30,887 bases of DNA, taken from positions 1-30,887 of the IMG/VR virus record IMGVR_UViG_3300046472_000222, one strand, 5' to 3'. This DNA comes from a virus. This document shows, one piece after another, positions 1,963 to 23,536 of the stretch (positions within the stretch are counted from its first letter, which is position 1; each line of letters begins with the position of its first letter). The position numbers and the translations under genes were made by a program. Under the pieces are notes generated by a model. That model had not been told where the DNA came from. It did no database searches and saw nothing but the letters and a program-made list of their open reading frames with translations.

Positions 1963-2008
1963 GAACCCGCACGGGTCAATGGTACCGTCGCCTTAGAAAG
2001 TTTCGTAG

Positions 2009-2014
2009 TACACT
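2009..2014 (+). promoter_or_regulatory. -10-like TACACT, leaderless start at 2021
   Basis: GTAGTACACT, then six bases, then ATG 2021. No Shine-Dalgarno and no evident -35 at 16-18 bases. Confidence 0.5.
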
Positions 2015-2020: not shown

Positions 2021-4495
2021 ATGCAACGCCTTCTGCTTTTGCTGCTCGCCTGCGCCGGGATTGCGCTCGGCCAGTACACGCCTCCGCCCGCCACCAGCGC
2101 TACGCCTTCCGGCCCGTGCGGTGGCGATCTGGGCGGCACGTATCCGAACTGCACGGTTACCGGCCAGCACTTCACTGTGCCGCTTGCCGCGAGCGCTGGC
2201 GGGGACGGGGTGAACAACGGGACTTTCACAACCACGTTGCTCGCAAACTTTGCACCAACAATTAATGGTGGCGCCTTCCTCGGTGCCGCAGACGGAGCAG
2301 CGTCACAGACGGCGCTGACGACGAAGCTGGGGGTGACTCCAGTGTATGGGGGCGGGGCTGTTACTAGTAACTGCGTGCCCTATGGAGTGAGCGGTGGCAC
2401 GGTGACATGCGCAACGGCAGATCCACTGACAACGACGGATGGCTGTCCAGAGTTAAGTGATCTCAATCAAGTTTGCCCATTGATTCCGCCCTATTATGCA
2501 TCCGGCTCTGGTGTTACTACCACGACAAGTGGGACAACGGCCCCTGGTACATCAGTTACTCTGGCCTCCGTCTCCACGTTTAGTACTAATCAAGGAATTT
2601 GGATAACTGGCGCTGGGCCTGTTAATGTGGCGGGTGGTACTTTCGCCTATGCGAGCGGCGGTACGGCTACGGGAACCGGGTTTTGCATTGCGAGCGCATC
2701 TAATGGTGGAGGCGGATTTGCTCGTGCCTCCGTATCGGTCTCTGCTGGAACTATCAGTGGAAATTTGACGCTGATATCAGGCGGACGGTCATTTGCATCG
2801 CCTCCCACGACATGGACCCTGGCGCTCCCCGCTAATTTAGCCAGCCCATCGACTCCGGCCGCTTTAACCTGCTCAGGGACTATCACCACAACCGGAGGGG
2901 CTCTTGTCGCCTCCAATTACGTCGGAACCATCACCGCGATCAATGGAAGCGTGCTTACGATATCCCCTGCAACCACTACCAGCGTTCCTACGGCTACCTT
3001 AGTCCAGCATGACGACACAGCGGCCCTGCGTGCAGTAATTGCCGTAATTGCCGCGTCGTCTACGCCTTCCATGAAAATGATCCTTCCCTCTGGGACCTAT
3101 AGGGTCAGCACTGAAGGCGGCTTTACGACCAGCAGCAGCATAAACTCTATCCTGGCCGTTCCGGAAGTTTCCTATCTGGATGGCTGGCCCGGAACTGCAA
3201 TTACCGGAAATTTGGCAGTCGTAGATATCGAGGGAATTCCCCCGAGTGCTCCATGTTACAACTATTTATCAGCAACCGCCGCGCCTTGCGTTTCTGGGGC
3301 GATCATCAAAACTGATTCCACTTTTGGTAGTGTTATCGGGGGAGGGCACTCTGCCGGCTATTCTGGCTTTACCGGAGTTCTCCTTTCCCTTAAGGGGCTG
3401 ACATTCAGGACGTATCACAATCCGGCCATATCGGCAATCAACGCCGCTCATATTGCAAACCTTAAAGTCGACAATATTACGGTTGATGTTGGCCAGACGG
3501 GGCTTCCCGGTGATCCTACGACGGGGCAGTCCTATGGATTGCAAGCTCCACTCACGGGCAATGGAGCGACAGTCAACCTCGGGCAAATTACCGTCACCGG
3601 ATACGCGGTCGGGGCGAGCATTTCAGAGTGGGCTGAAGTTGGGAATCTGCAACTTGTGGAGAATGTGTCATGCTTACTGGTGCCTGGGAATACGCATCCG
3701 ACGTTGATACATTTCTTACTAACGCAGGCATGCGCCTACCACGTAGTGGGCTCCGGAGCAGCCAGCAAGATTACAATCCAATCACACGGAACTGAAGATG
3801 CCTATATGTCCCTACCTAGCTGGGCAGTTACGCAAGATAATTATTACGATCCAAGCAATTTCCTGATCGGATCGGACGCCACGGATGGTGGCGTGGTACG
3901 TTCGGGAGCAACCAAGCTTTCCGTATCCTTACTGGGGGCCTTCCCGCAGGTCTATGCGAATGCCACATTGAGCAACATGCTTCTGAGTCCTCTCGCAAGG
4001 ACGGCGGGCGTAACGGGGCAGTTTAATGCTACCGTAGGCGGCCTCAATGTACTGACCTCAGGAAATAATAATTGGGGAGGAGGTATAAATTCTCTATTTG
4101 CGCTCACTACCGGCACAAAAAACACCGGCTCCGGGCAGGCTACCTGCGATACCATAATCACCGGCTCGCAGAATAGTTGCTTCGGCCAGGGGTCAGATGT
4201 GAACTCCAGTAGCGCGGCATTTCGAACAGTGATTGGAGCTAGCGCCGTAGGCACAGCCGACAACACGGTTACATTGGGGCGTTCGGCGGATACAGTGGTG
4301 ATTCCCGGAGCAACTACCGCGACGGGAGTTGTTACATTTACTGCTGCCCCACGTTTTAACGGCGGCAATACGACTGCTGCCGTTGTTGGGTTAATCGGGA
4401 CCACGTGTCCCGCTGTGACTTGTACCGCCGCTTTTACTTGGATGACGGTGACTACCTCTGATGGTAGTACCGGCTACATCCCGATTTGGAAATAA
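2021..4495 (+). CDS. Tailspike / tail fibre with signal peptide and beta-helix, 824 aa
   Basis: Likely receptor-binding or polysaccharide-contacting protein. Residues 1-18 (MQRLLLLLLACAGIALGQ) read as a Sec signal peptide, odd for a virion protein. GGDLGGTYPN at 34-43 matches a motif common at the N-terminus of phage and metagenomic fibre proteins. DDTAALRAVI from about residue 331, with LPSGTYRVS after it, is the usual entry into a pectate-lyase-like right-handed beta-helix. Near residues 737-765, VIGASAVGTADNTVTLGRSADTVVIPG resembles the repeat style of trimeric adhesin heads. The end, DGSTGYIPIWK, is typical of a fibre tip. Base composition is visibly more AT-rich than the head genes, suggesting separate acquisition. 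Enzymatic activity is not shown. Confidence 0.85.
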   Translation: MQRLLLLLLACAGIALGQYTPPPATSATPSGPCGGDLGGTYPNCTVTGQHFTVPLAASAGGDGVNNGTFTTTLLANFAPTINGGAFLGAADGAASQTALTTKLGVTPVYGGGAVTSNCVPYGVSGGTVTCATADPLTTTDGCPELSDLNQVCPLIPPYYASGSGVTTTTSGTTAPGTSVTLASVSTFSTNQGIWITGAGPVNVAGGTFAYASGGTATGTGFCIASASNGGGGFARASVSVSAGTISGNLTLISGGRSFASPPTTWTLALPANLASPSTPAALTCSGTITTTGGALVASNYVGTITAINGSVLTISPATTTSVPTATLVQHDDTAALRAVIAVIAASSTPSMKMILPSGTYRVSTEGGFTTSSSINSILAVPEVSYLDGWPGTAITGNLAVVDIEGIPPSAPCYNYLSATAAPCVSGAIIKTDSTFGSVIGGGHSAGYSGFTGVLLSLKGLTFRTYHNPAISAINAAHIANLKVDNITVDVGQTGLPGDPTTGQSYGLQAPLTGNGATVNLGQITVTGYAVGASISEWAEVGNLQLVENVSCLLVPGNTHPTLIHFLLTQACAYHVVGSGAASKITIQSHGTEDAYMSLPSWAVTQDNYYDPSNFLIGSDATDGGVVRSGATKLSVSLLGAFPQVYANATLSNMLLSPLARTAGVTGQFNATVGGLNVLTSGNNNWGGGINSLFALTTGTKNTGSGQATCDTIITGSQNSCFGQGSDVNSSSAAFRTVIGASAVGTADNTVTLGRSADTVVIPGATTATGVVTFTAAPRFNGGNTTAAVVGLIGTTCPAVTCTAAFTWMTVTTSDGSTGYIPIWK

Positions 4496-4504
4496 CCATG
4501 AAGA

Positions 4505-4636
4505 GCTGCTGCGGGAACATTCACGGTTGGCGCAAATACCTGCACGGTCGTCATTACCATCAACGGAGCGACCGGCTTGACGGCGACTAAGGCTGGTACG
4601 ACGGATGTGATCCGGTTTATGGCGATGGCGTACTGA
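4505..4636 (+). pseudogene. Orphan fibre C-terminus remnant, in frame with the tailspike
   Basis: After the tailspike TAA at 4493-4495, the same frame has a second stop (TGA 4499-4501) and then about 43 clean codons: AAAGTFTVGANTCTVVITING, continuing to KAGTTDVIRFMAMAY and a TGA at 4634. This reads like an alternative fibre-tip end but has no start codon or ribosome site. The likeliest explanation is a leftover from replacement of the tailspike 3' end by recombination; stop-codon readthrough is the alternative. Confidence 0.55.
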
Positions 4637-4660
4637 TTTCCACCATCCAAGCAGGTGCGG

Positions 4661-4666
4661 TACAGT
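4661..4666 (+). promoter_or_regulatory. -10-like TACAGT, leaderless start at 4673
   Basis: GGTACAGT is followed by six bases and ATG 4673. A weak -35 (TTCCAC, 4638-4643) lies 17 bases upstream. Confidence 0.5.
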
Positions 4667-4672
4667 AGGCGA

Positions 4673-4987
4673 ATGCGATTCCTTCTATTCCTCGCGGCCT
4701 CCGCCGCGCTGCACGCCGCCACTCCGCAAGAGCGCGCGATCCGCCGCCTCGAAAAGGCGCAACACGAAATCATCGTCGCTCAGCACCGGAGCGAGAAGCG
4801 CGGAGCCGAGGCGCAGGCCGCGTGCCAGTCAATCGGAAAGACGCTGCAGGTCAATCCGCTCGGAGTGCTGGACTGCATGACGCCGCCCGCTCCGCCCCCG
4901 CCAGTTGCGCCACCGCCGCCGCCTGCTCCGGCGAAGGTCGAGCCCGCGAAACCCGAAGCGCCGAAACCGGAACCCGCGAAACCGTAG
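4673..4987 (+). CDS. Secreted proline-rich protein, 104 aa
   Basis: Signal peptide at residues 1-15 (MRFLLFLAASAALHA, AxA-type cleavage), a charged helical middle (ERAIRRLEKAQHEIIVAQHRSEKR), two cysteines that could form a periplasmic disulfide, and a C-terminal third made almost wholly of Pro, Ala, Lys and Glu (PPPPPAPAKVEPAKPEAPKPEP). Such Pro/Lys tails often span periplasm or cell wall. A spanin-like role is conceivable, but there is no lipobox and no second partner. The ATG at 4673 is preferred to an upstream GTG at 4655 because of the promoter spacing. Confidence 0.75.
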   Translation: MRFLLFLAASAALHAATPQERAIRRLEKAQHEIIVAQHRSEKRGAEAQAACQSIGKTLQVNPLGVLDCMTPPAPPPPVAPPPPPAPAKVEPAKPEAPKPEPAKP

Positions 4988-4993
4988 TACAAT
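4988..4993 (+). promoter_or_regulatory. -10-like TACAAT, leaderless start at 5000
   Basis: GTAGTACAAT, six bases, ATG 5000. It differs from TATAAT at one position. It overlaps the stop of the preceding gene (4985-4987) by proximity. Confidence 0.55.
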
Positions 4994-4999
4994 CTCCGC

Positions 5000-5314
5000 A
5001 TGGCGATTCACACACTGACCTATACCGGAGACGGAACCAAGAAGACGCTCGCGGCCCTCGCGATCGCCAGCGGCAACTACTCAGCGGACCAGGCGAGCAA
5101 GTTCCGCGCGAACTGGATTCAGGCCGTGTGCGAGGGCGCCGGCACCGCGCGGTTCGGCGACGTGAACACGTCGGCGTCGTACGGCATTCCTCTGCCCCAG
5201 CAGGCCGGTCAGATGTGCCCACCGATAATGCACCCGGAGGATTGCTACAGCTTCACCGGGACATACATCTACACGCCAAACGGCACCGTCGTGACGTTTC
5301 TCTGGGACGCTTAG
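5000..5314 (+). CDS. Hypothetical 104-aa phage protein
   Basis: Starts MAIHTLTYTGDGTKKTLAAL; the central part is helical (YSADQASKFRANWIQAVCEGAG) and the end is strand-rich (YSFTGTYIYTPNGTVVTFLWDA). Three cysteines. No signal peptide, unlike its upstream neighbour. It sits between the tailspike region and the head genes under its own promoter, and its stop overlaps the convergent minus-strand gene by four bases. It may be a small virion or accessory protein; no family recognised. Confidence 0.75.
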   Translation: MAIHTLTYTGDGTKKTLAALAIASGNYSADQASKFRANWIQAVCEGAGTARFGDVNTSASYGIPLPQQAGQMCPPIMHPEDCYSFTGTYIYTPNGTVVTFLWDA

Positions 5315-5592
5315 TCGGCCTCGAACTGCGGACCAGGCATCCGCCCAACATAGTGAATCACTGCGTCGCTGCCCCACTCTGAGCCAGGAAGCTTACGGAA
5401 CTCATCGCAGACCATTTGGCGCATAGCTTCTCGTCCTTGGTTGAAGCCCTTCTTTTCGGCGCGGCCTTCCTTGGTCGCGTTGTACTCGCGCTGGTAAGTA
5501 GCCCAGCATTTCTTGCACCAGTTATTGTCGGCGACGCGGTCCAGCGGACCCTTGCACTTCGAACAAAGCACGACTTCGGCTGTTTCAGGCAT
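5311..5592 (-). CDS. Zinc-ribbon protein, antisense insert, 93 aa
   Basis: Two CxxC pairs at the N-terminus (CSKCKGPLDRVADNNWCKKCWATYQREY, residues 10-37) form a classic zinc ribbon; this pattern is common in short phage proteins and HNH-adjacent domains, but no HNH core follows. The rest is charged helix (ATKEGRAEKKGFNQGREAMRQM). It is the only minus-strand gene between two plus-strand units and has its own promoter, which is moron-like behaviour. Function unknown; nucleic-acid binding is plausible. Confidence 0.8.
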   Translation of the reverse strand: MPETAEVVLCSKCKGPLDRVADNNWCKKCWATYQREYNATKEGRAEKKGFNQGREAMRQMVCDEFRKLPGSEWGSDAVIHYVGRMPGPQFEAD

Positions 5593-5598
5593 GCCCGT

Positions 5599-5604
5599 AG
5601 TTTA
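5599..5604 (-). promoter_or_regulatory. -10-like TAAACT, leaderless start at 5592
   Basis: On the minus strand TAAACT is followed by six bases and ATG 5592; no Shine-Dalgarno. Confidence 0.5.
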
Positions 5605-5649
5605 CTAAACATCTTGGTCGTTTGTTTTGTTCAGTACCGGGAACCGTAG

Positions 5650-5655
5650 TACTAT
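5650..5655 (+). promoter_or_regulatory. -10-like TACTAT at head operon start
   Basis: GTAGTACTAT, seven bases, then ATG 5663. It would drive the whole head operon. An upstream in-frame GTG at 5627 precedes this hexamer and is not preferred. Confidence 0.55.
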
Positions 5656-5662
5656 CGCGGCA

Positions 5663-7441
5663 ATGGCAGCCGCAACACTGACGCCAGCTTTCGAGGCGTT
5701 GGCCCTAAAGATCCAGGAAGGCGCGATGATGAACGGCGACGTGTGCGCACGCCTCCGAGACTGCATCGCGGACTACTTCCGGGGCACCATGCAGTACGGG
5801 TACTACATGGATCACTCGGGAGACGGCGAGTCCGGCCAGGTCATCTACTGCACCGGCGGCGACGTCATGCAGGCGGATTATGAGATCGGCTCGGTTGGCG
5901 GCAAGGCGACGTGCGGCATCGACTTCGAGGGATCCGTGGACGTCGTGCCCATCACCAGCTACGTTCCCGAGGCCGAGGAAACGGACCACTACGCCGCGAT
6001 GGCCGAGTCTTTCCGCGAAGCGAAGCTGTACAAAACTCTGCCGATCTACGAGCGGTACATCTCGCAGAAGACGCGCAAGGCGGCGGGCGCGGGCGACTTC
6101 GCCGGTAAAGGGAAAAGCTTCCCGATACTGAAGGCCGAGGACGTGAGCGCGGCGTTGCACTCCATCGGGCGCGCGGGGCCGGACAACTACAGCGCCGACA
6201 CGATCCGCGCCAACATCAAGCGGATCGCGAAGGCGAAGGGGTTTGCGCTGCCGGACTCGCTGAAGGATGACGCGAAAGAATCCCTAGGCAGTGCGGGCAG
6301 TCACTTGCGAAGTGGCGCTCCGCTTTCGGGCACCCATTCAGGGGGCCCACGGGCAACGGGGCAAGTTTTGGGCCGCGAAGGTTCCGGCGAGCAACAGGAG
6401 TCAACATCCCTCAAGCTTACCGAATCCGCCGCGACACTGGAAACCATTGTACTGAAGGAAGCCCGCGCCGACTACGAAACGAAGCTGATCGCTCCTGGTA
6501 AAGGTTCCAGCGCGTTCTATCCAAAGGAAGTCTTGCAGCGAGACGGTCCAAAGGTCTTCAAGGCCGGGACGCACGTCTACCTGAACCATCCGACCGCCGC
6601 AGAGGAAGCCGCGCGGCCTGAGGGTAATGTGGCGAATCTGGCCGGGGTCCTCACGACCGATGCGGTCTACCACGAGAATCATGCAAAGGGACCCGGTCTT
6701 TATGCACGGATGAAGGTCTTCGCGGACCATGCGCAGATCGTGGAAGAGAAGGCGGCGCATGTCGGGATGTCCATCAGGGCGTCGGGTGTCGCGGAATCCG
6801 GCAAGTCGCGCGATGGCCTGCCGATTCTGAAGGAACTGACCAGCGCGGAGAGCGTCGACGTGGTGACGCGAGCCGGTGCGGGCGGAATGATCTTGACCGA
6901 GGCGGCGCGCGGCGCGGCCGAAAATTCACAGGAGGTCGATATGACCAAAGAGGAAATCACTGCTCTCGTCGAGAGCGCGGTGAAAACTGCCGTTGCCGCG
7001 GTAACGCAGCCGGTACAACGGCTCACCGAGCGCGAACTCCGCGCCGATGCCACGGTCCTGGCAACGCGGGTGCTTTCGACCTGCACGCTGCACGAAGCGA
7101 GCAAGCAGCGCGTGATCGAGGCCGCCGTCAAGACGCTGCCGAAGACCACCGACGGCATGCTCGACGAGGCGAAGTTCGCCGAGCTTGTCACCGCCGAGGC
7201 GAAACGCGAAGGGCAGTACGTCGCGGCCTTGACCGGTACCGGTACCGGCGTCCGCGGCATGGGTCCTGGCGGGAACGTCGTCGAGATGGACCCGGCGAAG
7301 CTTCGCGAGGCGCAAGTTGCCGAGGAAGCCGCGGAGAAGCGCTTCCGCGAATCGGAAAACGAAGTCTTCTGCGAACTGATGGGCAACCCGGCGGCTGCCA
7401 AGTTCGCGGTCGAAGGCAAGAAGCATCGGAGGGTGGCGTAA
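5663..7441 (+). CDS. Capsid maturation protease-scaffold fusion with N-terminal accessory domain, 592 aa
   Basis: Three parts. Residues ~1-210 include FPILKAEDVSAALHSIGRAG from residue 153, a motif I associate with the DUF6582-type domain found at the front of some phage proteases. A Gly/Ser-rich linker follows. Residues ~255-425 look like a prohead protease, with candidate catalytic His in YLNHPT and Ser in VGMSIRASG. From residue 427 (MTKEEITALVESAVKTA) the protein becomes a helical, charged scaffold-like domain with KLREAQVAEEAAEKRFRESE. It is directly upstream of the decoration and major capsid genes, the usual place. The protease assembles inside the prohead, cleaves scaffold and is lost. 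Family assignment of the catalytic core is by pattern only. Confidence 0.8.
   Translation: MAAATLTPAFEALALKIQEGAMMNGDVCARLRDCIADYFRGTMQYGYYMDHSGDGESGQVIYCTGGDVMQADYEIGSVGGKATCGIDFEGSVDVVPITSYVPEAEETDHYAAMAESFREAKLYKTLPIYERYISQKTRKAAGAGDFAGKGKSFPILKAEDVSAALHSIGRAGPDNYSADTIRANIKRIAKAKGFALPDSLKDDAKESLGSAGSHLRSGAPLSGTHSGGPRATGQVLGREGSGEQQESTSLKLTESAATLETIVLKEARADYETKLIAPGKGSSAFYPKEVLQRDGPKVFKAGTHVYLNHPTAAEEAARPEGNVANLAGVLTTDAVYHENHAKGPGLYARMKVFADHAQIVEEKAAHVGMSIRASGVAESGKSRDGLPILKELTSAESVDVVTRAGAGGMILTEAARGAAENSQEVDMTKEEITALVESAVKTAVAAVTQPVQRLTERELRADATVLATRVLSTCTLHEASKQRVIEAAVKTLPKTTDGMLDEAKFAELVTAEAKREGQYVAALTGTGTGVRGMGPGGNVVEMDPAKLREAQVAEEAAEKRFRESENEVFCELMGNPAAAKFAVEGKKHRRVA
6930..6935 (+). 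promoter_or_regulatory. Perfect internal Shine-Dalgarno AGGAGG
   Basis: AGGAGG five bases before the in-frame ATG at 6941, within the protease gene. It is the best ribosome site in the region and signals a nested scaffold start. Confidence 0.75.
6941..7441 (+). CDS. Nested scaffold protein (internal in-frame start), 166 aa
   Basis: Same frame and same stop as the protease. It begins MTKEEITALVESAVKTAVAA behind AGGAGG, exactly at the boundary between the protease and scaffold domains. The product is helical and acidic/basic, as expected for a scaffold that templates capsid assembly and is then degraded. This is the arrangement known for lambda gpC/Nu3. The sequence shows start, ribosome site and domain boundary; separate expression is inferred. 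Confidence 0.7.
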   Translation: MTKEEITALVESAVKTAVAAVTQPVQRLTERELRADATVLATRVLSTCTLHEASKQRVIEAAVKTLPKTTDGMLDEAKFAELVTAEAKREGQYVAALTGTGTGVRGMGPGGNVVEMDPAKLREAQVAEEAAEKRFRESENEVFCELMGNPAAAKFAVEGKKHRRVA

Positions 7442-7442
7442 C

Positions 7443-7877
7443 ATGATCAACGAAATCAAGCAAGGGTCGCAGCGCAGTAAGCGCTGGTTCCCGTGCCCCA
7501 GCGCCGTCACCAGCGGCATGGCTGTGCTGATCGGTGCGCAGAACGGCCCGGCGCTCGCCGCCGTGGCCGAGGATGCGTACGATTCGAGCACCGGAGGCAC
7601 GACCTTCTGTCTCGACGGAAGCTTTGCGCTGACGGTTATCGGGCAGTCGAGCCAGTCCCCGGTGAGCGGGCTTCAGATCAACCCCGGCGAGGAACTTTAC
7701 GCCCAGGGAACGTTCGACTCGACCACGAACGTGACCTACAGTCTCACGATCGACAAGACGCGCGGCAACACGCCATTCGGCAACCTCGATCAAAACACGG
7801 CCATTCTTTCGGGCGTGACCAGCACGACCGCAATCGTTCGCTTGAAGTACGGCGGAAGCGGCCCGTACGGCGCGTAA
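7443..7877 (+). CDS. Capsid decoration / DUF2190-like protein, 144 aa
   Basis: MINEIKQGSQRSKRWFPCPSAVTSGMAVLIGAQNGPALAA has the look of DUF2190-type head decoration proteins, with the block VTSGMAVLIG followed by GTTFCLDGSFALTVIG and a strand-rich remainder. It lies two bases after the protease stop and 15 before the major capsid gene, where decoration proteins normally sit. Likely binds the outer capsid surface. No unusual features. Confidence 0.75.
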   Translation: MINEIKQGSQRSKRWFPCPSAVTSGMAVLIGAQNGPALAAVAEDAYDSSTGGTTFCLDGSFALTVIGQSSQSPVSGLQINPGEELYAQGTFDSTTNVTYSLTIDKTRGNTPFGNLDQNTAILSGVTSTTAIVRLKYGGSGPYGA

Positions 7878-7892
7878 AAGGAGAACACGAAC

Positions 7893-9275
7893 ATGGAAAC
7901 CTTTCAAAGTCTAGGCACTCTGCCCGAGTTCTCCAGCACTGCCGTTCATAGCCGGATGCGGGAGGCCAACCCCGACTACTTGATGCCGATGCGGCCACAC
8001 AACCAGCCGGGTTACCGGCGGCGTGTGTTCGAAGCGGCTCGGCTGCTCACCGACGTGCTCGGTGGTCGCGAAGATGGACTCTTCTGGAAAGAGTTCATGA
8101 ACCCGACCCGGCAGATCTTCGTGCAGGCCCTGCACGAGAAGTATCCCGGTATCTGGGGCGGCAACATCCAGACCGACCAGATGGGTCGCGTGGGACTTCG
8201 CGAAACGATGTCCTACACCGACTACAGCGCGTTGACGGTCGATATCCTCGATCGCATGCTGTACGGCTACTACTCCGCGGCACCCATCAGCAACTTGCCG
8301 CTAGTGAAGCCGCACACTCTCCGCGACTTCCGTCTCGTCGCTCGCTACGAGATGGACGGAGGCACCAAGCCGTTCTCGCGCCTGCCAACCGACTTCCCGA
8401 AGCTGGTACCGCACGGGGCCAGCGAACCGCCGACCGAGCGCTCGATGCAGCAGGCCGCGCAGGAAGTTCTCGGATCGACGCAGCGCGTCACGTATCAGCC
8501 TCAGTTGTACCAAGGCATGATGAGCGTCAACTGGCGCGCGCTGGTCAACGATGACCTGGGGATCTTCCAGGACATGGTGCAGCGGCTCGCGATCTCCGGA
8601 AACCGGACGATCTACCAATTCATCACCGGCCTGTACGTGTCCTCGACCGGCTGGAACACCACCCTGGTGTCGAGCACGTTCGCCAATCAGGTGACGGTCG
8701 CCAATGGTGCGGCCTCAGCCAATCCCGCGCTATCGTGGCAGGGGCTGTTGGATGCCCGCACGGTTCTCGCGAAGCAGCTCGACAGCGACGGACAGCCCAT
8801 CGACTTCATGGGGCGGCTCTTCCTGTACGTGGGCCCGGCGTTGGAAAACACCGCGATCTCGATGTCCAAGGCTCTGACGGCAAACATCAGCGTCGGCGGT
8901 GGTACCACGAACGCTCAGGGATTCCCGAGCCAACAGTTGGTCACCCCGAACTGGCCGCTCGCCGGCGTCGAGGTGGTGGTGGACAAATACATCCCACTCA
9001 TCTGCACCACGGCGGGAACGCAGAACACCATGTGGGCGCTGATCTACGAGCCCCAGGTTCAGCCGCGTCCTTCGGTGGAACTCGGCCGGCTCGCCGGTTA
9101 CGAGACACCGCAGCTTTTCCAGCAGGTCCCCAACACGATGCGGGTCGGCGGTGGCGTCGATCCGATGATGGGCGACTTCTGGAGCATGAACATCAACTAC
9201 AAGGGCGTCCTGGTTCTGGGTGGGACCCAGATCGACGGCCGCTCGCTGGCGGCGTCGACAGGCCAGGGCGTCTAA
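7893..9275 (+). CDS. Major capsid protein, 460 aa
   Basis: Location after protease/scaffold and decoration genes, length, and a strong ribosome site (AAGGAGA nine bases before ATG) point to the major capsid protein. The N-terminal arm is short (LGTLPEFSSTAVHSRMREAN), followed by an internal RQIFVQALHEKYPGIWGG region and a long middle with TYQPQLYQGMMSVNWRALVNDDLGIFQDM, typical of HK97-fold capsid proteins that bind nearby 'E460-like' families in siphoviruses. The C-terminus contains PNTMRVGGGVDPMMGDFWSMNI. I cannot tell cleavage sites or cross-link residues from sequence alone. Confidence 0.85.
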   Translation: METFQSLGTLPEFSSTAVHSRMREANPDYLMPMRPHNQPGYRRRVFEAARLLTDVLGGREDGLFWKEFMNPTRQIFVQALHEKYPGIWGGNIQTDQMGRVGLRETMSYTDYSALTVDILDRMLYGYYSAAPISNLPLVKPHTLRDFRLVARYEMDGGTKPFSRLPTDFPKLVPHGASEPPTERSMQQAAQEVLGSTQRVTYQPQLYQGMMSVNWRALVNDDLGIFQDMVQRLAISGNRTIYQFITGLYVSSTGWNTTLVSSTFANQVTVANGAASANPALSWQGLLDARTVLAKQLDSDGQPIDFMGRLFLYVGPALENTAISMSKALTANISVGGGTTNAQGFPSQQLVTPNWPLAGVEVVVDKYIPLICTTAGTQNTMWALIYEPQVQPRPSVELGRLAGYETPQLFQQVPNTMRVGGGVDPMMGDFWSMNINYKGVLVLGGTQIDGRSLAASTGQGV

Positions 9276-9392
9276 GAGGGAAAGGGAGTCATGCGCCGCT
9301 GTGTCGCCATCGGGTGCGCGGCGGCGTTCCTGTTTACGGAAGAAGGACGAGGCTTGTCGCATGAACCTTGCCGTCAATCCATCGAGGGTACT

Positions 9393-10889: not shown

Positions 10890-10897
10890 GGAGACTT

Positions 10898-11368: not shown

Positions 11369-11377
11369 GCTGTACGC

Positions 11378-15047: not shown

Positions 15048-15250
15048 ATACCCGCATACTCGCGGAACTTAGCGAGCTTTCCGCGAATGATAGAGACCCA
15101 TCCGGAGCCATCGCACACTTCGCACTTGCCATCCGGTACGCGCCAGTTCACGCAGGGGCATTCCTCGATGGCTACGCCGCAGTGCAGGCATACGAAGAAC
15201 TTCCCGTGAGCACGGGGGCGGTGCCAGCACAGCATGATCAATGTTGGCAT
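15044..15250 (-). CDS. Zinc-finger protein, antisense insert, 68 aa
   Basis: Cysteine spacing C-x2-C at FVCLHCGVAI, then ECPC, and KCEVCDGSGWVSI at the C-terminal half, the last being like the CxxCxGxG half-site of DnaJ. ATG 15250 is taken; GTG 15256 and ATG 15235 are alternatives. It is convergent with the tape measure, sharing four bases of stop codon, and back to back with the gene at 15288. Like the 5311-5592 gene it is a lone minus-strand cysteine-rich gene inside the structural region. Function unknown. Confidence 0.75.
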   Translation of the reverse strand: MPTLIMLCWHRPRAHGKFFVCLHCGVAIEECPCVNWRVPDGKCEVCDGSGWVSIIRGKLAKFREYAGI

Positions 15251-15272
15251 GCCCACCCGCGCAGTGAAATGG

Positions 15273-15278
15273 TACTAT
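15273..15278 (+). promoter_or_regulatory. -10-like TACTAT within inverted repeat GGTAC-N4-GTACC
   Basis: TGGTACTAT nine bases before GTG 15288. The whole element GGTACTATCGTACC is an inverted repeat, so the minus strand reads TACGAT in the same place and may serve the divergent gene at 15250. Confidence 0.45.
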
Positions 15279-15287
15279 CGTACCTAA

Positions 15288-15512
15288 GTGCTGGTCAACC
15301 TCCAGGCCGAAGGATCTGCGGACAAGCTCCCCGAGGGCATGAGCACCGAGGAAATCCGCGAAGCGCAGGAATCGCGGCGCATCCTTCGCCAGACGCTGCG
15401 CGAAGAGCAACTGGCGCTCCACTTGGAACTAACCCGGCGCGAGCACGCGGATGCCGAGGCGCGGCGCAATCCGAATGCATCGCTGAATCAAGGGGTGAGT
15501 CTCCGTGGCTAA
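15288..15512 (+). CDS. Short coiled-coil tail-region protein, 74 aa
   Basis: Starts with GTG 15288 and is almost entirely charged helix: MSTEEIREAQESRRILRQTLREEQLALHLELTRREHADAE. It ends by overlapping the next gene by eight bases. It lacks cysteines and membrane segments. It may be a small scaffold or assembly partner for the tail-tip genes that follow; no family recognised. Confidence 0.65.
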   Translation: MLVNLQAEGSADKLPEGMSTEEIREAQESRRILRQTLREEQLALHLELTRREHADAEARRNPNASLNQGVSLRG

Positions 15513-16041
15513 CCGTCCGTACAAAGCCGGAATGTTCCACTTTATGAATGGGGACATCAACCTGCCGACCGACAATCTTAAGGTGGTTCTGCTCAGCGCG
15601 ACATACACGCCAAGCACAATCACGGGCGGCGACGAGTTCCTGAGCGTCATCCCCGGCGGCGCGATCATCGCGACTTCGCCGAACCTGTCCAGCAAGGTCA
15701 TCAACTCACCACAAGGCAGCTTCCAGGCCGCTAACCCAGTGTTCAGTTCGGTGGTGGGCGCGACCGTAACGCAGTTCGCGCTCTACAACGATACGGGTTC
15801 CTCGGCGACGAGCCAGCTTCTCATCCTCTGGGACAATGCGACGAACCTTCCCGTAGTGCCGAACGGCGGGAATATCACCGTGCAGTGGGCGGGCTCTCCG
15901 AACTACGTTTTTTCGTTCAACTTCGAGCGGCTGAGCGACGAAGAGCGCAGTATCGTGGAACGAATCTTTGACGCGCTGCGCGGACTCTTCAAGGGCGGCT
16001 CGGATCTTCTGATTCCGGTGCCGTCACTGACGCTCGGATAG
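15505..16041 (+). CDS. Conserved phage tail-region protein, 178 aa
   Basis: GTG start at 15505 inside the previous gene. The opening (ANRPYKAGMFHFMNGDINLPTDNLKVVLLSATYTP) follows a pattern I know from many phage proteins of about 120-180 residues, 'GxxxFxxGDIxLxTDxxKVxLLxxxYxP', found near tail genes and of unknown precise role. The body is beta-rich with small loops; the last 40 residues switch to a charged helix (RLSDEERSIVERIFDALRGLF) that is not part of the usual core. Probably a virion protein. Confidence 0.75.
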   Translation: MANRPYKAGMFHFMNGDINLPTDNLKVVLLSATYTPSTITGGDEFLSVIPGGAIIATSPNLSSKVINSPQGSFQAANPVFSSVVGATVTQFALYNDTGSSATSQLLILWDNATNLPVVPNGGNITVQWAGSPNYVFSFNFERLSDEERSIVERIFDALRGLFKGGSDLLIPVPSLTLG

Positions 16042-16044
16042 AAC

Positions 16045-17094
16045 ATGGCGGGCTGCGAACAGTATTTCGATCTGTTCTCGACTACGGTTGGCGGGGGTGG
16101 ATACACAGCCGGAAGCGGAGTCCTCGACGTCGTCAGCACAACCGGCGTAACTCTCAACGCCGGAGACACGTGCCGCTTGCTGGTCTACCGTGTCTCTGGT
16201 GGCGTCAACACTCCTATCGTCTTGCTCATCGCCACAGCGGTCAACAGTGGAACGCAATTTGCAGTCACGTCGGAAGGCGCGGATAGCAACGCTATCGCTA
16301 CCGACGTTGTGATCAACGTCAATTCGGTCGGTGGCCAGAATCAAATCCGCAAAGACCAAAGCGGACTCGCTGCTTATTCTTCCCTACCTTCGACTTCAAG
16401 CGCACACGTCGGTGATCGCTTCAGCCCCACAGATGCAGATTCAAATTATGCTTTCGTTTTCAACGGGAGTATTTGGGTCCCTCGATTGGCGACGTCCCAG
16501 AACGTCACCATTCCCCCGGCGGCCGCCTCGTGGAGTTGGATTGGAACGCAAGGATCAGCTCTAATCACAGATCTGGCGTCCGGCGGAGTCCAGTTAACGA
16601 ATCCGACGACAACACAGACAGCCGTGGCACTGGCTGTCCCTGGATCGACGCCATGGACGCGGAGATTCGGATTCAATTGGATGGGAGGGGGAATCGGTGG
16701 CGGCCTCTTCTTTTATGATTCTGGGTCCGCTAGGGCGCAAGTATTTCACCACGAAGAGGGATCCGACCCGGACGCCGTCAGTAGCAGCAAAAGGCTGGAG
16801 TTCTTCTCCATCTCAAACTGGCACATCGCTGCTGGCGTCTGGACGTTCGACAGCCAAGTGATCGCGCCAGTGAGAATCGCTGCTAATTCCCCACTATTTT
16901 ATATGGCGCTCGAAGACGACGGGACCAACTTCCTATTCCTTTACGGAATCGACCTGTCCAGCAATCTTCTGCAATTCAGCAGTTCGCAGGGTCGGCACTC
17001 TTGGCTCTCCGGCGGCCCGACCCACTACGGCTTCCTGTTTTACAGCCAGATCACATCTGCTCCTATCGCTGTAAATTTGTTGCATCTCGGGTAG
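16045..17094 (+). CDS. Tail protein of unknown type, 349 aa
   Basis: Gly/Ser/Thr-rich, all-beta composition. The N-terminal 110 residues (AGSGVLDVVSTTGVTLNAGDTCRLLVYRV) look like one domain. A junction at about residues 115-150 contains DRFSPTDADSNYAFVFNGSIWVPR, a pattern seen at phage tail fibre joints. The C-terminal 200 residues resemble a lectin-like sandwich (FGFNWMGGGIGGGLFFYDSG; HYGFLFYS). It sits three bases after the previous stop. Base use is slightly more AT-rich than the neighbours. Likely part of the tail tip or a fibre. Confidence 0.65.
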   Translation: MAGCEQYFDLFSTTVGGGGYTAGSGVLDVVSTTGVTLNAGDTCRLLVYRVSGGVNTPIVLLIATAVNSGTQFAVTSEGADSNAIATDVVINVNSVGGQNQIRKDQSGLAAYSSLPSTSSAHVGDRFSPTDADSNYAFVFNGSIWVPRLATSQNVTIPPAAASWSWIGTQGSALITDLASGGVQLTNPTTTQTAVALAVPGSTPWTRRFGFNWMGGGIGGGLFFYDSGSARAQVFHHEEGSDPDAVSSSKRLEFFSISNWHIAAGVWTFDSQVIAPVRIAANSPLFYMALEDDGTNFLFLYGIDLSSNLLQFSSSQGRHSWLSGGPTHYGFLFYSQITSAPIAVNLLHLG

Positions 17095-17098
17095 CTCC

Positions 17099-19228
17099 AT
17101 GTCGATCAACATCTCCGCACAATGGGGCGCGGATCAGTGGGGCGCGGACCCGTGGGCTGGCTTTCAGGGGGGCGGTGCTGGCTCCCAGACGATCAGCCCG
17201 GCGGGTCTATCCATCACGGTGGGAATCGGCACGCCGTACGTCCTTGGTCCCCCCCAGGCCGTGCTTCCGAGTGGGCTCTCTGTTTCGGTCGGCATCGGTA
17301 TGCCCACGATCATGGGACCGCCACAGACGCTCATCATTCCTGGGCTGTCGGTACAGGTGGGGATCGGCACTCCTACGCTGGTCGGGGGCGCCACCCATCT
17401 CCAGGTCTTCATCGACAACGTGGACCGCAGCAAATACCTCATCCCTCTGGGACTGTCACAGCAGCGCACGGGCGGCGGCGGTGGGGGCGGCGGCAGCGTC
17501 TCGGCATCCTCGGGTCCTGTCACGATCAGCAGCAGCACCATAGGCCGCGCAACGTGCTCCCTGGACCTGTTCGTAAACGACGGGTCGGGCTACGTTCCAC
17601 GGGCGGCGTCGACGATCATCCTGAAGGAGTTTGGCCAGAAGAAGTTCGCCGGCTGCATCTCGACCGTCTCAACCGATCCCGTTCAGCCGAACTTCGACAA
17701 GATCGGCTTTCACCTGGCTTGCGTAGATAAATCAAGCATTTGCGACCACCGGGTAGTGCTGAAGGATTACGCGGCCGGCGCCGACGCCGCAGCCACGGTG
17801 CTGGATATTGTGACCAACTTCCTCAACGGGGAAGGGATCACGACAGAGGGCGTGATCATCACGGCCACGCTGGGCAGCCCGATCACCGGCAGCCATCAGA
17901 CGGTAACCCAAGTGTTTGACACCATTTGCGCGCAGACTGGCGCAACGTGGTGGGTGGACATGAATGGGGTGCTGAACCTGAGCGTGCTGGCATCGGCGCC
18001 GGCGGCACCCATCTCGCTCACGTCCTCGTCCGACAACTTCCGCAATTTCACGGCATCCGAGACGACGCAGGGGTACGGGAACAAGTTCTACGCGGTCAGT
18101 AACTTGGTTGTTTTGCCAGGGTCCAGTAACGGACCAACTGGCGCGGCACGCACAGAAACCTACACGTTCATCAACGAAGGCGGGGCGGCGTGGCAGGCCG
18201 CGGCCTTCGCCGCGGGCCTTGCGCCGGGCTACGTGCTCACGCAATTGCCGATTGGTACTTTGGTCGGGGTGAAGATCAACGGCTCGACCGTGGCCATTTT
18301 CCCGCTATCGGAGGGCATCCAGCCGGGCCACTCCTACTACTGGTTCGCTGGAATCAGCACTGCGGCTGTGATCTTCCCCGAGAACTTCCTGCCGTCCATC
18401 GGGGACGTGATCGACGTTTCCTACATCCCGATCTACCAGAACTCGACCGTCAACACTGGCACGCCGCTGACCGGGACGTGCGGCTCGGGAATCTACGAGG
18501 GCGTGATCCAGGTCCCCAACATTTCGCTCCAGGGGGATCTGGACGCCATCGCGGCAGCTTACCAGACCAAGAACGGCGGGGCGCTGCCGTACATCTGCAC
18601 GTTCGAGACGGATCAGCCGGGGCTGGCGGTCGGGCAGGCGCTTTCGTGCGACCTTCCGCTGACTGGCCTGGGCACCACGACACTGTACATTACCCAGGTG
18701 ACGCTGCAAGAGGCGTCCGAGAATTGCGTTGACCTGGGCGGCGGGTCGAGCTTCCGATGCCGGGTCGAGGCGTCGACTAAGCAGAGCCTGGGGAATTGGC
18801 TCAACTGGTTCGAGAACCTCGTGGCGCGGTCCAACTACCCGCTCCCGCTGCCCCGCTACGAATACGCGGCGTTCGTGCTGGCTCCCGGGTCTTCTCTCGG
18901 TGGCGGTAACGCGGGCGTCAATCCGTACATCGTCCAGAACACCGGCCAGCTCTACGCGGCGGTCGGCGCTGCCGCGGTCGCTCCCACGAACCAGGATCTC
19001 CTGATTGACATCCTCGTGAACGGGGCGAGCGTCTTCGGTGGCGACATCACGAAAATGCTCAGGATCCCGGCGGGGTCGACCACGCTCCACACCACGACCA
19101 GCTTCGCGTCGCCGGGGATGTTCGTCTACAAGGGCGACCTCGTAACGGTGAGCGTGCAGTACTCGGTGCTGGCGACTAACCCCACGGCGGCGAGCGGTGT
19201 TTCGGCTAACCTACAATGGAGTTTCTGA
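17099..19228 (+). CDS. Tail-tip hub-like protein with N-terminal repeats, 709 aa
   Basis: Residues 1-35 are Gly/Trp-rich with a doubled GADQWGADPW; 36-97 carry three 23-residue repeats. From about residue 150 the segment with RATCSLDLFVNDGSGYVP, then KKFAGCISTVSTDP, and VFDTICAQTGATWWVDMNGVLNL near residue 280 recalls the hub domains of Mu gp44/T4 gp27-type baseplate proteins. The last 110 residues (YEYAAFVLAPGSSLGGGN to the end) look like a separate jelly-roll binding domain (ITKMLRIPAGSTTLHTTTSF). Probably the central tail-tip protein, also carrying a binding module. Assignment by pattern only. Confidence 0.75.
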   Translation: MSINISAQWGADQWGADPWAGFQGGGAGSQTISPAGLSITVGIGTPYVLGPPQAVLPSGLSVSVGIGMPTIMGPPQTLIIPGLSVQVGIGTPTLVGGATHLQVFIDNVDRSKYLIPLGLSQQRTGGGGGGGGSVSASSGPVTISSSTIGRATCSLDLFVNDGSGYVPRAASTIILKEFGQKKFAGCISTVSTDPVQPNFDKIGFHLACVDKSSICDHRVVLKDYAAGADAAATVLDIVTNFLNGEGITTEGVIITATLGSPITGSHQTVTQVFDTICAQTGATWWVDMNGVLNLSVLASAPAAPISLTSSSDNFRNFTASETTQGYGNKFYAVSNLVVLPGSSNGPTGAARTETYTFINEGGAAWQAAAFAAGLAPGYVLTQLPIGTLVGVKINGSTVAIFPLSEGIQPGHSYYWFAGISTAAVIFPENFLPSIGDVIDVSYIPIYQNSTVNTGTPLTGTCGSGIYEGVIQVPNISLQGDLDAIAAAYQTKNGGALPYICTFETDQPGLAVGQALSCDLPLTGLGTTTLYITQVTLQEASENCVDLGGGSSFRCRVEASTKQSLGNWLNWFENLVARSNYPLPLPRYEYAAFVLAPGSSLGGGNAGVNPYIVQNTGQLYAAVGAAAVAPTNQDLLIDILVNGASVFGGDITKMLRIPAGSTTLHTTTSFASPGMFVYKGDLVTVSVQYSVLATNPTAASGVSANLQWSF
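17204..17389 (+). repeat. Three tandem 69-bp (23-aa) repeats in the hub gene
   Basis: Copies start at 17204, 17273 and 17342. Each begins GLS-hydrophobic-x-VGIG-T/M-P, with a GPPQ block in the first two. The third copy is shortened. DNA has diverged more than protein, so the repeat is selected at protein level. Confidence 0.75.
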
Positions 19229-19368
19229 CGGGTGCGAACAAGTTTGGTTGTCGCATACACGCGGGGCTGAACCAGATCCTTTCTTTCGAGGAGTTGTCTC
19301 GCCCGGTTCCGGTTCCCTGCGACCCGTATCCGCCCGCAGCTTTCCACCCGTTCCGCGCGCGTCGATAG
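19216..19368 (+). CDS. Possible 50-aa basic proline-rich protein
   Basis: Starts at ATG 19216 inside the last codons of the hub gene and ends at TAG 19366. Sequence begins MEFLTGANKFGCRIHAGLNQ and ends in a Pro/aromatic/Arg tail (PYPPAAFHPFRARR). It fills most of the only gap between the hub gene and the convergent zinc-finger gene. No ribosome site; translation could couple to the hub stop. Could be chance. Confidence 0.4.
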   Translation: MEFLTGANKFGCRIHAGLNQILSFEELSRPVPVPCDPYPPAAFHPFRARR

Positions 19369-19379
19369 TACTTCGGCGC

Positions 19380-19808
19380 TCATTCCATCCATGATACGCA
19401 TCCCTGTGTCGAGCAGCGCCCGTGCATGTGGCCGTTGTATGAGGCGACCGAATAGCGCAGCTTCCCGCCATCACAGCAGGGACACGCAATTTCGCCGATG
19501 CCCCCGCTTCCCTTGGCGAAACCCCTCGCCTTCGCGTCAGCCTTCGCGGCACCGCGCGCTTTCACGCCACGTTCGTAGGACGCAATGCGCTCGTCGGCCT
19601 CCTTCTCGGCGTCCGCTTGGCTCATGATTTCAAACAGAACGCAGTCCCACGTCTTGCGCTCCTTTACGAAACCGGGAAGACATGGCATGGCGCCAGTTCC
19701 GCGATGATCCTCGTAGCGAACTCCAGCCTTGCAGGTTTTGTTCTGTACGCCGTTAAAGTGACGGCATGAATCCAGTGCAGACTTGATGAACCGTTCTCTC
19801 AATTCCAT
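19380..19808 (-). CDS. Zinc-binding protein, antisense insert, 142 aa
   Basis: MELRERFIKSALDSCRHFNGVQNKTCKAGV opens with two cysteines; a charged linker follows (ADAEKEADERIASYERGVKARGAAKADAKARG). The C-terminal 40 residues form a zinc ribbon, ACPCCDGGKLRYSVASYNG then MHGRCSTQGCVSWME, with four or five cysteines. ATG 19808 is selected over upstream starts, which overlap the divergent gene, because CAAGAT lies five bases away. Probably binds zinc and possibly nucleic acid; function unknown. Another lone minus-strand gene in the tail region. Confidence 0.75.
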   Translation of the reverse strand: MELRERFIKSALDSCRHFNGVQNKTCKAGVRYEDHRGTGAMPCLPGFVKERKTWDCVLFEIMSQADAEKEADERIASYERGVKARGAAKADAKARGFAKGSGGIGEIACPCCDGGKLRYSVASYNGHMHGRCSTQGCVSWME

Positions 19809-19813
19809 GTCCC

Positions 19814-19819
19814 ATCTTG
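19814..19819 (-). promoter_or_regulatory. -10-like CAAGAT, leaderless start at 19808
   Basis: GGCAAGAT, five bases, ATG 19808 on the minus strand. It lies about 30 bases from the plus-strand element at 19846, making a compact divergent promoter pair. Confidence 0.4.
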
Positions 19820-19845
19820 CCAAGCGGGCGCGCATCCCGCAATGG

Positions 19846-19851
19846 TACTTT
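19846..19851 (+). promoter_or_regulatory. -10-like TACTTT, leaderless start at 19858
   Basis: TGGTACTTT, six bases, ATG 19858. TGG before the hexamer gives an extended -10 (TGN). Confidence 0.5.
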
Positions 19852-19857
19852 CGTTCA

Positions 19858-21072
19858 ATGGCCCTTCGCTCCCTCAACGGCTTCGCGTACTCGGACTTCA
19901 CCAAGTGGTCGCTGCGGTACCCCAACTCCGCGTTCTTCGACGGACTGTTCCGTCCGCTGGGCACGTATACACTGACCGGCCAGATTGACACCGGGCCGTT
20001 TGGCGTCGGCAACGGCAACGCCCTGCATTTGAAGGTCGCGCAGCACATCTGGGAGTTCACGGAGATTTTCGACAATCAGCAGGGCTGGATCGTCGGCATG
20101 TGGATCATGCCGCACGCCATCGCGACCACGAAGACGATTCTACTTTTCCAGGACCGCACGGGAGTCAACCTCGGGACGCAGTTCGTGGTGCAGATTCGAC
20201 CGGACGGGAAGATCCAGATCGGGACGGGGTTCGGGGACAACGTCTTCGTGTTCCCCGCGCTCTACGACACGATCAACAGCGGCAACCCGGTAGGGATCAA
20301 CGCGACCAGCACGGCCGCGTGCCCGATGGACCAGTGGACGCACGTCTGCATCAAGCTATTCGTCGCCGCCAGCACGGACACGCCGTCCGGAAGCGCGCAA
20401 CTCTACATCAACGGATCGCTCGATACCTCAGTGTTTGGAAAGAGCACCGGCCCCACCAGCCACAACTATGCGAACTGGATCGGGCCGATGTGGGACTCGA
20501 CGGACGGCAGCGAGATTTCGTTCAGCGAGCCGGTGGTGTGCGACTTCCTGGGCTCGGTGAACAACATCCCGGTTTCGCCCAACTCCCAGGTGAAGACGTT
20601 CTTCCCGACCTCGGATGTCGCCAACGGCGGATGGCTGCCCGCGAGCGGCGCCGACAATTTCGCGATGGTGAACGACGTCAACGGGCCGAGCGGCACGAAC
20701 TACGTGCAGCTTCCTGCGCTCACGTTCCCCGATGAGCTGTTCGGCTTCCCTGGCTCAGGACTTGGCGGTTCGCTGCTGGGGCTGGCGGTCAATGTGGCGA
20801 GCGAGCAGTCCGGCGCGGGCCAGACGCTCCAGGCGCTGCTCAAGCAGGGCGCGACGAAGTACCTGCTGGGCTCTACCATGACTGCACCGGCGACGCGCGC
20901 CATTATCCCGACCGTGCTGGACACGAACCCGGCGACCGGAAACCCGTGGCTGGCGTCCGAAATCGGCGGCGGCGCGTGGGGATTCCGCGGCCTCACCGGC
21001 ACCGGGTACAAGGTCGAGCAGATGTACCTGGAGGCGCTGGCGGGCGGCGGGGTGGGCAGCTACTCCTATTGA
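19858..21072 (+). CDS. LamG/ConA-like lectin-fold tail protein, 404 aa
   Basis: Residues ~30-230 match the pattern of concanavalin-like sandwich domains: WEFTEIFDNQQGWIVGMWIMP, KTILLFQDRTGVNLG, GKIQIGTGFGDN, then MDQWTHVCIKLFV and GSAQLYINGSLDTS, the classic 'W..v......g...lyvNG' strand pair. The C-terminus (GLAVNVASEQSGAGQTLQALLKQG and YKVEQMYLEAL) is another beta domain ending GGVGSYSY. A sugar- or receptor-binding tail protein is the best guess. It has its own promoter, so it may be a swappable module separate from the hub operon. Confidence 0.75.
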   Translation: MALRSLNGFAYSDFTKWSLRYPNSAFFDGLFRPLGTYTLTGQIDTGPFGVGNGNALHLKVAQHIWEFTEIFDNQQGWIVGMWIMPHAIATTKTILLFQDRTGVNLGTQFVVQIRPDGKIQIGTGFGDNVFVFPALYDTINSGNPVGINATSTAACPMDQWTHVCIKLFVAASTDTPSGSAQLYINGSLDTSVFGKSTGPTSHNYANWIGPMWDSTDGSEISFSEPVVCDFLGSVNNIPVSPNSQVKTFFPTSDVANGGWLPASGADNFAMVNDVNGPSGTNYVQLPALTFPDELFGFPGSGLGGSLLGLAVNVASEQSGAGQTLQALLKQGATKYLLGSTMTAPATRAIIPTVLDTNPATGNPWLASEIGGGAWGFRGLTGTGYKVEQMYLEALAGGGVGSYSY

Positions 21073-21275
21073 GAGGATGGCGTCGCGCGGTTACGGTTGA
21101 ATTCGTCCTTCGCTCGTTCGATTGCTAGATATCCGGGACACGGATCGTCAAGATCAGCGGTGCATGCATCGGCGAACGTTGCAAGAGTTGCTCGGCAATC
21201 CTGGCATATCATCGAACGGGCGAGCGTTTTTTCAACGTGGGCGCGCTCTTCCTGTAGCCTTTTTGATAACTTCAC
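21066..21275 (-). CDS. Cysteine-containing helical protein, 69 aa
   Basis: Start GTG 21275 overlaps the previous stop (GTGA) and has GAGGAAA upstream; the longer frame upstream is noise. Sequence KLSKRLQEERAHVEKTLARSMICQDCRATLATF, then a second cysteine pair (ADACTADLDDPC) and a basic end. One C-x2-C plus two spaced Cys could hold one zinc. It overlaps the end of the lectin gene by seven bases. Second gene of a two-gene minus-strand insert. Confidence 0.7.
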   Translation of the reverse strand: MKLSKRLQEERAHVEKTLARSMICQDCRATLATFADACTADLDDPCPGYLAIERAKDEFNRNRATPSSQ

Positions 21276-21467
21276 GGAATTTCCTCCCCTTGCGCTTCCT
21301 GGCAGTCGTAGCAGGTCTCCGAAACCCCAGACCCTCCGCAGGTCTCGCAATGCTCAATATCGTCTAGGTCATCTGTTTTTGAGGGTCCTACGTATTGCCA
21401 GCGCATGTCCACGGCGTAGTTTCCTTTGCCGCCACAATCTGCGCACCTGACGCATTCACAAGCCATG
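21272..21467 (-). CDS. DnaJ-type zinc-finger mini-protein, 64 aa
   Basis: MACECVRCADCGGKGNYAVD and ETCGGSGVSETCYDCQEA contain the CxxCxGxG-style half-sites of DnaJ-like cysteine-rich domains, here without any J domain. Eight or more cysteines in 64 residues. It heads the 21467-to-21066 minus-strand pair and has a promoter-like TAAGCT five bases before ATG. Possible redox or protein-binding role by analogy; function unknown. Confidence 0.75.
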
Positions 21468-21472
21468 GCCCA

Positions 21473-21478
21473 GCTTAC
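21473..21478 (-). promoter_or_regulatory. -10-like TAAGCT, leaderless start at 21467
   Basis: Minus strand: TAAGCT, five bases, ATG 21467, no Shine-Dalgarno. It does not derive from a stop codon here. Confidence 0.45.
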
Positions 21479-21503
21479 GACGCGGATCGCACGGATGGAA
21501 TGG

Positions 21504-21509
21504 TACCGT
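21504..21509 (+). promoter_or_regulatory. -10-like TACCGT in a GGTACCG direct repeat, start at 21517
   Basis: TGGTACCGTGGTACCGATG: the heptamer GGTACCG occurs twice; TACCGT ends seven bases before ATG 21517. Confidence 0.45.
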
Positions 21510-21516
21510 GGTACCG

Positions 21517-22041
21517 ATGTTTCTCTTACTGCTCGCTCTCGCCCTGCCACTCGCCGCCCAGCCAATCACCGTCGCGATGGAAAACTTAACGCATCCCGGC
21601 TTAAGTTTCCAGGTCGCGGACCAGTGGCGCATCACGGTAACCGGCGCTCCGTCGCAGGCCGTCAGCATCGCGGCGTACCACGACGGGATCAGCATCGGGC
21701 CGGCGGCCGCAGTCACGCTGGACGCCACCGGGTCGCTCGTGCTGACCGGAAAGATGGCCGCCTCGCAGATCGGAGACTGGCAGGAATCCTTCAACGGTGC
21801 GCCTTTGGCCTTCACTGTGCAGCCTGCCCCGGCGCTGGTGATGGTCACGACGCCCGTGGGGCCTTCCACGCCCAACTCGTTCGCCTGTCCCGCAGGCCGC
21901 GCGCTGGTGCTCGCGCTGGGCTGGTCTGGCGTGCAGGGCGTGGCGCTGATCGAGGGCGAAGACTACACGCTCGTCAATGGCGCGGTGGCACTGGTGGACA
22001 CGCCGCAGGTCGGCGATGTGGTGCAGTTGCTCTGCCAGTGA
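21517..22041 (+). CDS. Secreted beta-sandwich protein, 174 aa
   Basis: Signal peptide MFLLLLALALPLAAQ (residues 1-15) followed by two beta-rich halves: ITVAMENLTHPGLSFQVADQWRITVTG (Ig-like appearance) and a C-terminal RALVLALGWSGVQGVALIEGEDYTL segment with a cysteine at the start and end. It has its own promoter and is convergent with the lysis block without a gap. Export to the periplasm or surface is predicted. It could modify the host envelope or be a virion part made in an unusual way; no family recognised. Confidence 0.7.
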   Translation: MFLLLLALALPLAAQPITVAMENLTHPGLSFQVADQWRITVTGAPSQAVSIAAYHDGISIGPAAAVTLDATGSLVLTGKMAASQIGDWQESFNGAPLAFTVQPAPALVMVTTPVGPSTPNSFACPAGRALVLALGWSGVQGVALIEGEDYTLVNGAVALVDTPQVGDVVQLLCQ

Positions 22042-23504: not shown

Positions 23505-23536
23505 TCACAATTTTCTGTGGCGGCAATGGTACTACG

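Follow-up and report, generated by a model that had tools for sequence, protein, structure and literature searches.

The 30,887-nucleotide virus record IMGVR_UViG_3300046472_000222 (here, the window) is a linear 30.9-kb fragment encoding a head protease, capsid protein, tape measure, and hub-like and LamG proteins, and it carries a real and recurrent cassette of predicted exported spikes. The main product of this cassette is probably P0001, an 824-residue tailspike-like protein whose sequence predicts Sec export, disulfide-assisted folding and action on glycans. The signal peptides, their start codons, the recurrence at one locus, the fibre ancestry and the cysteine signature can all be read in the DNA and are described below.

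Signal peptides, start codons and cysteines

P0001, P0002 and P0003 open with Sec-type signal peptides, as a first-pass annotation of this DNA had claimed, with scores (13.75, 11.15 and 13.25, respectively) well above those of shuffled sequences and internal methionines. The signal of P0001, MQRLLLLLLACAGIALG, is encoded at 2021..2071 (+) and is predicted to be cut before Q18, leaving QYTPPP at the mature N-terminus; those of P0002 and P0003, MRFLLFLAASAALHA and MFLLLLALALPLAA, have predicted cuts before ATPQ and QPIT. Shuffles of each protein's own sequence equalled the real score in 0/2000, 4/2000 and 10/2000 cases for P0001, P0002 and P0003, and a score of at least 11 was reached by 4 of the 47 curated window genes (P0001-P0004; P ~7e-5 given the internal-methionine rate of 20/4386 that served as the false-positive control). 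A positive n-region, hydrophobic core and AxA-like site are all present in P0001, P0002 and P0004, while P0003 is the weakest of P0001-P0003 on the first feature because its n-region contains no Lys or Arg. Many signal-bearing fibres, including P0001, have a mature N-terminus of the form Q-x-x-PP right at the predicted cut (QYTPPP, QYRPPG, QNTPPS, QPVNPP, QYTPPG), which is possibly a linker or attachment peptide.

A TACNNT hexamer lies 6-7 nt 5' of the ATGs at 2021, 4673 and 21517, and likewise before 5000 and 5663, a spacing that supports the first three as starts; 13 of 772 window ATGs, these five included, have TACNNT 4-9 nt upstream. Exact copies of CGTAGTAC occur at 2004, 4983 and 5645. 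TACNNT resembles a -10 element that would yield nearly leaderless messages, and its placement together with the CGTAGTAC copies makes the earlier proposal of separate promoters for the three genes reasonable, though a plain sigma-70 scan stayed at chance level. A 67-nt inverted repeat (73%) at 933-999 and 23532-23598, with TAGTAC/TTCTACGTAGAAA motifs and near divergent genes, probably represents further phage promoters. A search of Rfam returned no match.

The cysteine content offers tests that are not dependent on the signal-peptide predictor alone. Even cysteine counts, an established marker of DsbA-type, exported disulfide-bonded substrates (PMC7678975), were found in 31 of 37 mature signal-bearing proteins (p=4e-5), and the median cysteine content of these proteins was 1.56%, versus 0.23% in capsid, portal, tape-measure and protease proteins (p=1.6e-11). 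Mature P0001 is predicted to contain 16 cysteines, and mature P0002 and P0003 two each. In the family of P0005, a small cassette partner, exactly two cysteines occur in all five members with a signal and in 5 of the 24 without one (Fisher p=0.001), and the two cysteines of the signal-bearing members do not always occupy the same pair of positions. Read most simply, the signals would function and the products would fold in an oxidising compartment. As far as export goes, the earlier suggestion of a spike sent out to act on the host surface is therefore backed by signal recurrence, disulfide-type cysteine statistics and the start-codon evidence.

The portal-protease slot and the ancestry of P0001

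Where relatives of the capsid protein are encoded, the conserved gene order is portal, variable slot, minus-strand zinc-ribbon gene, protease, decoration and capsid. In 80 such loci, signal-bearing genes (at least 150 residues, deduplicated) made up 15 of 74 genes in the slot versus 9 of 445 elsewhere (odds ratio 12, Fisher p=2.5e-8), counts that exclude P0001 itself, which failed the codon-composition filter; several of the nine outside the slot are artefacts. The slot encodes a large protein of fibre or enzyme type and, after it, one or two small exported-type ones, and the bodies of these proteins are mostly unrelated (GH43+LamG, GDSL, S74 chaperone, collagen-like). The fibre or depolymerase modules of signal-bearing proteins also include beta-helix and tail-fibre PHROGs. 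At locus L073, a protein encoded after the major capsid protein (MCP) gene joins a signal peptide to a domain sharing 50% identity with the N-terminal domain of the signal-less fibres found at that position. The signal-bearing spike design recurs in related and unrelated viruses with exported-type cysteines, and spike-type proteins therefore seem to be exported before lysis. The structural model of P0005 had a pLDDT of 92, and its predicted fold found no match in the PDB at E<=0.001.

P0001 reads as a mosaic with a foreign body, because its domains match different sources and the composition of its body departs from that of the core genes. The last 47 residues (4352..4492, +) are 54-60% identical in a 48-residue alignment (55-62% by BLAST) to the C-termini of signal-less fibres encoded 3' of the capsid gene in related phages (L060-L076). 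A scan with this C-terminal domain reached 24 viral loci, some of them contigs met before; the fibres carry a signal at L214, L222, L224/225, L229/230, L236 and L237 and lack one at the remaining loci, and some of the loci contain runs of consecutive signal-bearing genes. Residues 366-614 are ~30% identical to a signal-less phage tail protein, in which an adjacent stretch, segment 99-174, matches mannuronan epimerases. The tail-protein match and the shared fibre C-terminus, together with a weak hit to PF12708 (E=0.011), underlie the putative tailspike label. Residues ~657-790 are 35-43% identical to Acidobacteriota proteins, most with a detected signal, and GC content at third codon positions (GC3) is 0.71 over the first 100 residues and 0.46-0.57 beyond, compared with 0.81-0.87 in core genes.

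Searches with P0001 found no relatives among viral contigs and one weak phage match elsewhere. Its N-terminus matched no family and has no recognisable virion-binding domain, the signal and a short linker standing there instead; family comparisons assigned it no catalytic family, and P0001-P0003 match no wall-hydrolase family. The AlphaFold model of P0001 alone had a pLDDT of 33. The motif GDLGGTYPN, previously taken to support a fibre origin, had to be discarded as such evidence: GDLxGTYPN is widespread in secreted cellular proteins, and 46 of 82 open reading frames (ORFs) with the motif carry a signal. A degenerate DNA pattern for GDLxGTYPNC matched none of the viral contigs. The fibre origin itself is retained on the strength of the shared C-terminal and central domains.

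Several other features of the slot and its surroundings were noted. The zinc-ribbon-like gene occupies the same place on the opposite strand within the head operon in the window and 50 other loci. SixA-like ORFs of phosphohistidine-phosphatase type (M..YLMRH) recur in the slot (L002:6426, L003:6064, L012:6202, L020:5041, L029:5917, L037:724, L057:2454 and L064:6689), and L002 and L003 also have glycosyltransferase/methyltransferase-like genes upstream of portal. In a 53-kb virus contig that is unrelated, consecutive signal-bearing genes, one of them for a beta-helix-like protein, occupy L237:3463-8998. At L003:9434-9958, L051:1895-2389 and L048:9364-9897, the decoration ORF is extended in frame at its N-terminus by a hydrophobic stretch (MFHPHAF.LL..LLSLL), which may be a leader in its own right, a further signal or an artefact. 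Positions 9291-9340 of the window, after the capsid gene, contain a GC-rich terminator-like hairpin, which is also present at the matching site in many loci (L027, L033, L037, L055, L068); its loop region is often CTCGGGGGAGGTGG, or in other phages approximately the reverse complement TTCCTCCGAG, and its in-frame reading mimics a signal peptide. The apparent signal ahead of the post-MCP gene was dismissed as nothing more than this hairpin in translation.

Table 1 Features of the proposed exported-spike cassette and other genes in the window.
Feature	Coordinates	Strand	Details
P0001, 824-residue tailspike-like protein	2021..4495	+	Signal peptide 1-17; GDLGGTYPN 35-43; beta-helix-like ~327-614; repeat region ~657-790; fibre C-terminus 778-824 (47 residues)
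CGTAGTAC/TACACT promoter-like element	2004..2014	+	6 nt before ATG 2021
P0002, signal peptide; charged, possibly coiled stretch; two Cys; proline-rich tail	4673..4987	+	
P0005, small conserved cassette partner	5000..5314	+	No signal peptide here; signal peptide in five relatives
Zinc-ribbon-like conserved gene at border of variable slot	5311..5592	-	
Head maturation protease, right border of slot	5663..7441	+	phrog_15531, E=5e-31
LamG-domain protein in tail module, no signal peptide; candidate conventional host-binding protein	19783..21072	+	PF13385
P0003, signal peptide and 160-residue mature protein, two Cys	21517..22041	+	GTG 21508 is an alternative possible start
P0004, SLT lysozyme with signal peptide; likely a Sec-exported endolysin, predicted from muralytic domain and signal	22042..22563	-	SLT_3, PF18896, E=1e-12; signal score 11.65

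The export model and its rivals

Export, cleavage, disulfide formation and the final role of P0001 we infer from these features. P0001 would be made late in infection and carried through Sec; signal peptidase I would release a mature protein starting QYTPPP, whose N-terminal peptide with pyro-Glu would be QYTPPPATSATPSGP; and the protein would fold oxidatively, with disulfides, in the periplasm and would have host glycans beyond the cytoplasm as its target. P0002 and P0003 would be smaller exported companions. As a last step, host lysis would bring the spike into contact with new virions or with cells nearby. In vitro, incomplete particles can take up P22 tailspikes and T4 fibres, and spike attachment after lysis is therefore physically possible. 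For the final role, we tentatively prefer a spike, serving in host recognition or as a depolymerase, that would be added to the particle once it has been exported. That several lineages of tailed phages complete their particles outside the cytoplasm, with Sec-sent spikes acquiring periplasmic disulfides and attaching to virions at lysis, is a more doubtful generalisation.

A number of points weigh against export of a virion spike. The signal-peptide calls come throughout from a home-made rule for the n-, h- and c-regions rather than from SignalP, signal-bearing starts in the relatives were picked among several possible codons, and the relatives compared share ancestry and cannot all be counted as independent. 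Disulfides can also form within virions when nothing is exported: the tails of crAss001 hold them, and the text of the paper describing these tails makes no mention of signal peptides (PMC10172136); this explanation would, however, leave the link between signal and cysteines within the P0005 family unexplained. The export model does not account for how the spike would get across the outer membrane before lysis. As to the host, alignment of MCP to genome contigs found no prophage; among 396 genomes from the phylum of a Bryobacterales genome, MCP gave weak distant matches only. Finally, phages with signal-bearing spikes also encode signal-less LamG or hub proteins, and the signal-bearing spike therefore need not be the receptor-binding protein.

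This last point favours a role for P0001 as a free secreted effector that never enters the particle and instead trims exopolysaccharide, masks receptors or blocks superinfection, a possibility we hold slightly less probable than the virion spike. The signal and cysteine signature suit such an effector, similar repeats occur in secreted bacterial proteins, P0001 lacks a recognisable virion-binding domain, and the closest analogue known, WceF, is an exopolysaccharide enzyme that is secreted and has a tailspike fold (PMC7949094). The cassette, however, sits in the head module, the fibre modules and shared C-terminus point to virion proteins, and the signal-bearing protein of L073 still has the N-terminal domain typical of fibres encoded after MCP; these are the points that would favour the virion role. 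Nor does local BLAST find any P0001 domain in the other proteins of this phage, as self-masking through shared binding domains would suggest, and that variant is unsupported.

The other explanations are less probable. Capture of a secreted host gene, in which a bacterial surface-protein gene was fused to phage fibre ends and P0001 inherited its signal and behaves like the donor protein, had been raised in the first-pass annotation and has limited support from the Acidobacteriota likeness of residues ~657-790, the foreign GC3 across most of the body and the abundance of GDLxGTYPN in secreted cellular proteins. We regard it as unlikely, given that the region including the signal is nearer the phage in GC3, the central and C-terminal domains match signal-less phage fibres, and unrelated signal-bearing bodies recur in one slot; the C-terminus also found no match in the 396 Acidobacteriota-sample genomes, in a search without a positive control. 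Still less likely is that P0002 and P0003 are spanin-like or envelope-stress factors of lysis and that P0001 merely uses the same route. The signal-bearing SLT lysozyme adjoins P0003, and P0002 combines a proline-rich tail with a charged stretch that may be coiled, but neither a spanin nor a holin family was matched, and where relatives encode a second exported protein, it is an unrelated one of beta-rich or collagen-like type. An artefact, by use of a downstream start or chance reading of upstream DNA as a hydrophobic N-terminus, does occur in the clade (the hairpin-derived 'signal' of the post-MCP connector is one case) but is very improbable for P0001. The TACNNT spacing fits ATG 2021 and disfavours a start beyond the signal, the next in-frame ATG, GTG or TTG past the signal would by inspection lose the GDLGGTYPN region, and cysteine parity is independent of start choice.

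Comparison with known systems

The usual view is that tailed-phage components are produced and put together in the cytoplasm, and our search of open papers, with no bioRxiv preprints, did not turn up any account of tailed-phage fibres bearing Sec signals. If the export of P0001-type proteins is true, Cys-paired exported spikes in soil and other phages would represent either periplasmic virion maturation or widespread secreted effectors, the latter being phage proteins that act on host surfaces and biofilms. Cytoplasmic expression, the standard route, would then misfold such depolymerase candidates, and signal peptides within structural modules should not be discarded as annotation noise.

P0001 and its group resemble phage tailspike depolymerases and fibres with S74 chaperones in their putative beta-helix, S74 or LamG/GH modules, their variable bodies and the shared fibre C-terminus. 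Known phage tailspikes attain their fold in the cytoplasm, and their N-terminal domain binds the virion, whereas P0001 has a signal peptide and short linker in the place of that domain. The coat proteins of filamentous phages are also viral structural proteins that rely on the Sec machinery of the host, but they stay as inner-membrane proteins and are then extruded, while P0001-type proteins are predicted to be soluble and belong to tailed, presumably lytic, phages. Secreted GDLxGTYPN proteins of Bacteroidota, Acidobacteriota and others share with P0001 the signal, motif and repeat region; these cellular proteins differ in being chromosomal, and none of the 396 genomes searched has the phage fibre C-terminus.

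Sec-exported phage endolysins are known (for example, the M4Lys background; PMC7143992), and P0004 looks like one; P0001-P0003 resemble them in their predicted route and differ in lacking a wall-hydrolase match. The likeness to WceF of Pantoea stewartii, a secreted bacterial tailspike-like exopolysaccharide enzyme (PMC7949094), lies in a cleavable export signal (predicted in P0001) ahead of a tailspike-like body, which in WceF acts on extracellular glycans. WceF, in contrast, uses a Tat signal and is encoded in a bacterial exopolysaccharide cluster, whereas P0001 has a Sec-type signal and lies between phage head genes, in a hypervariable cassette with companions that are themselves predicted to be exported.

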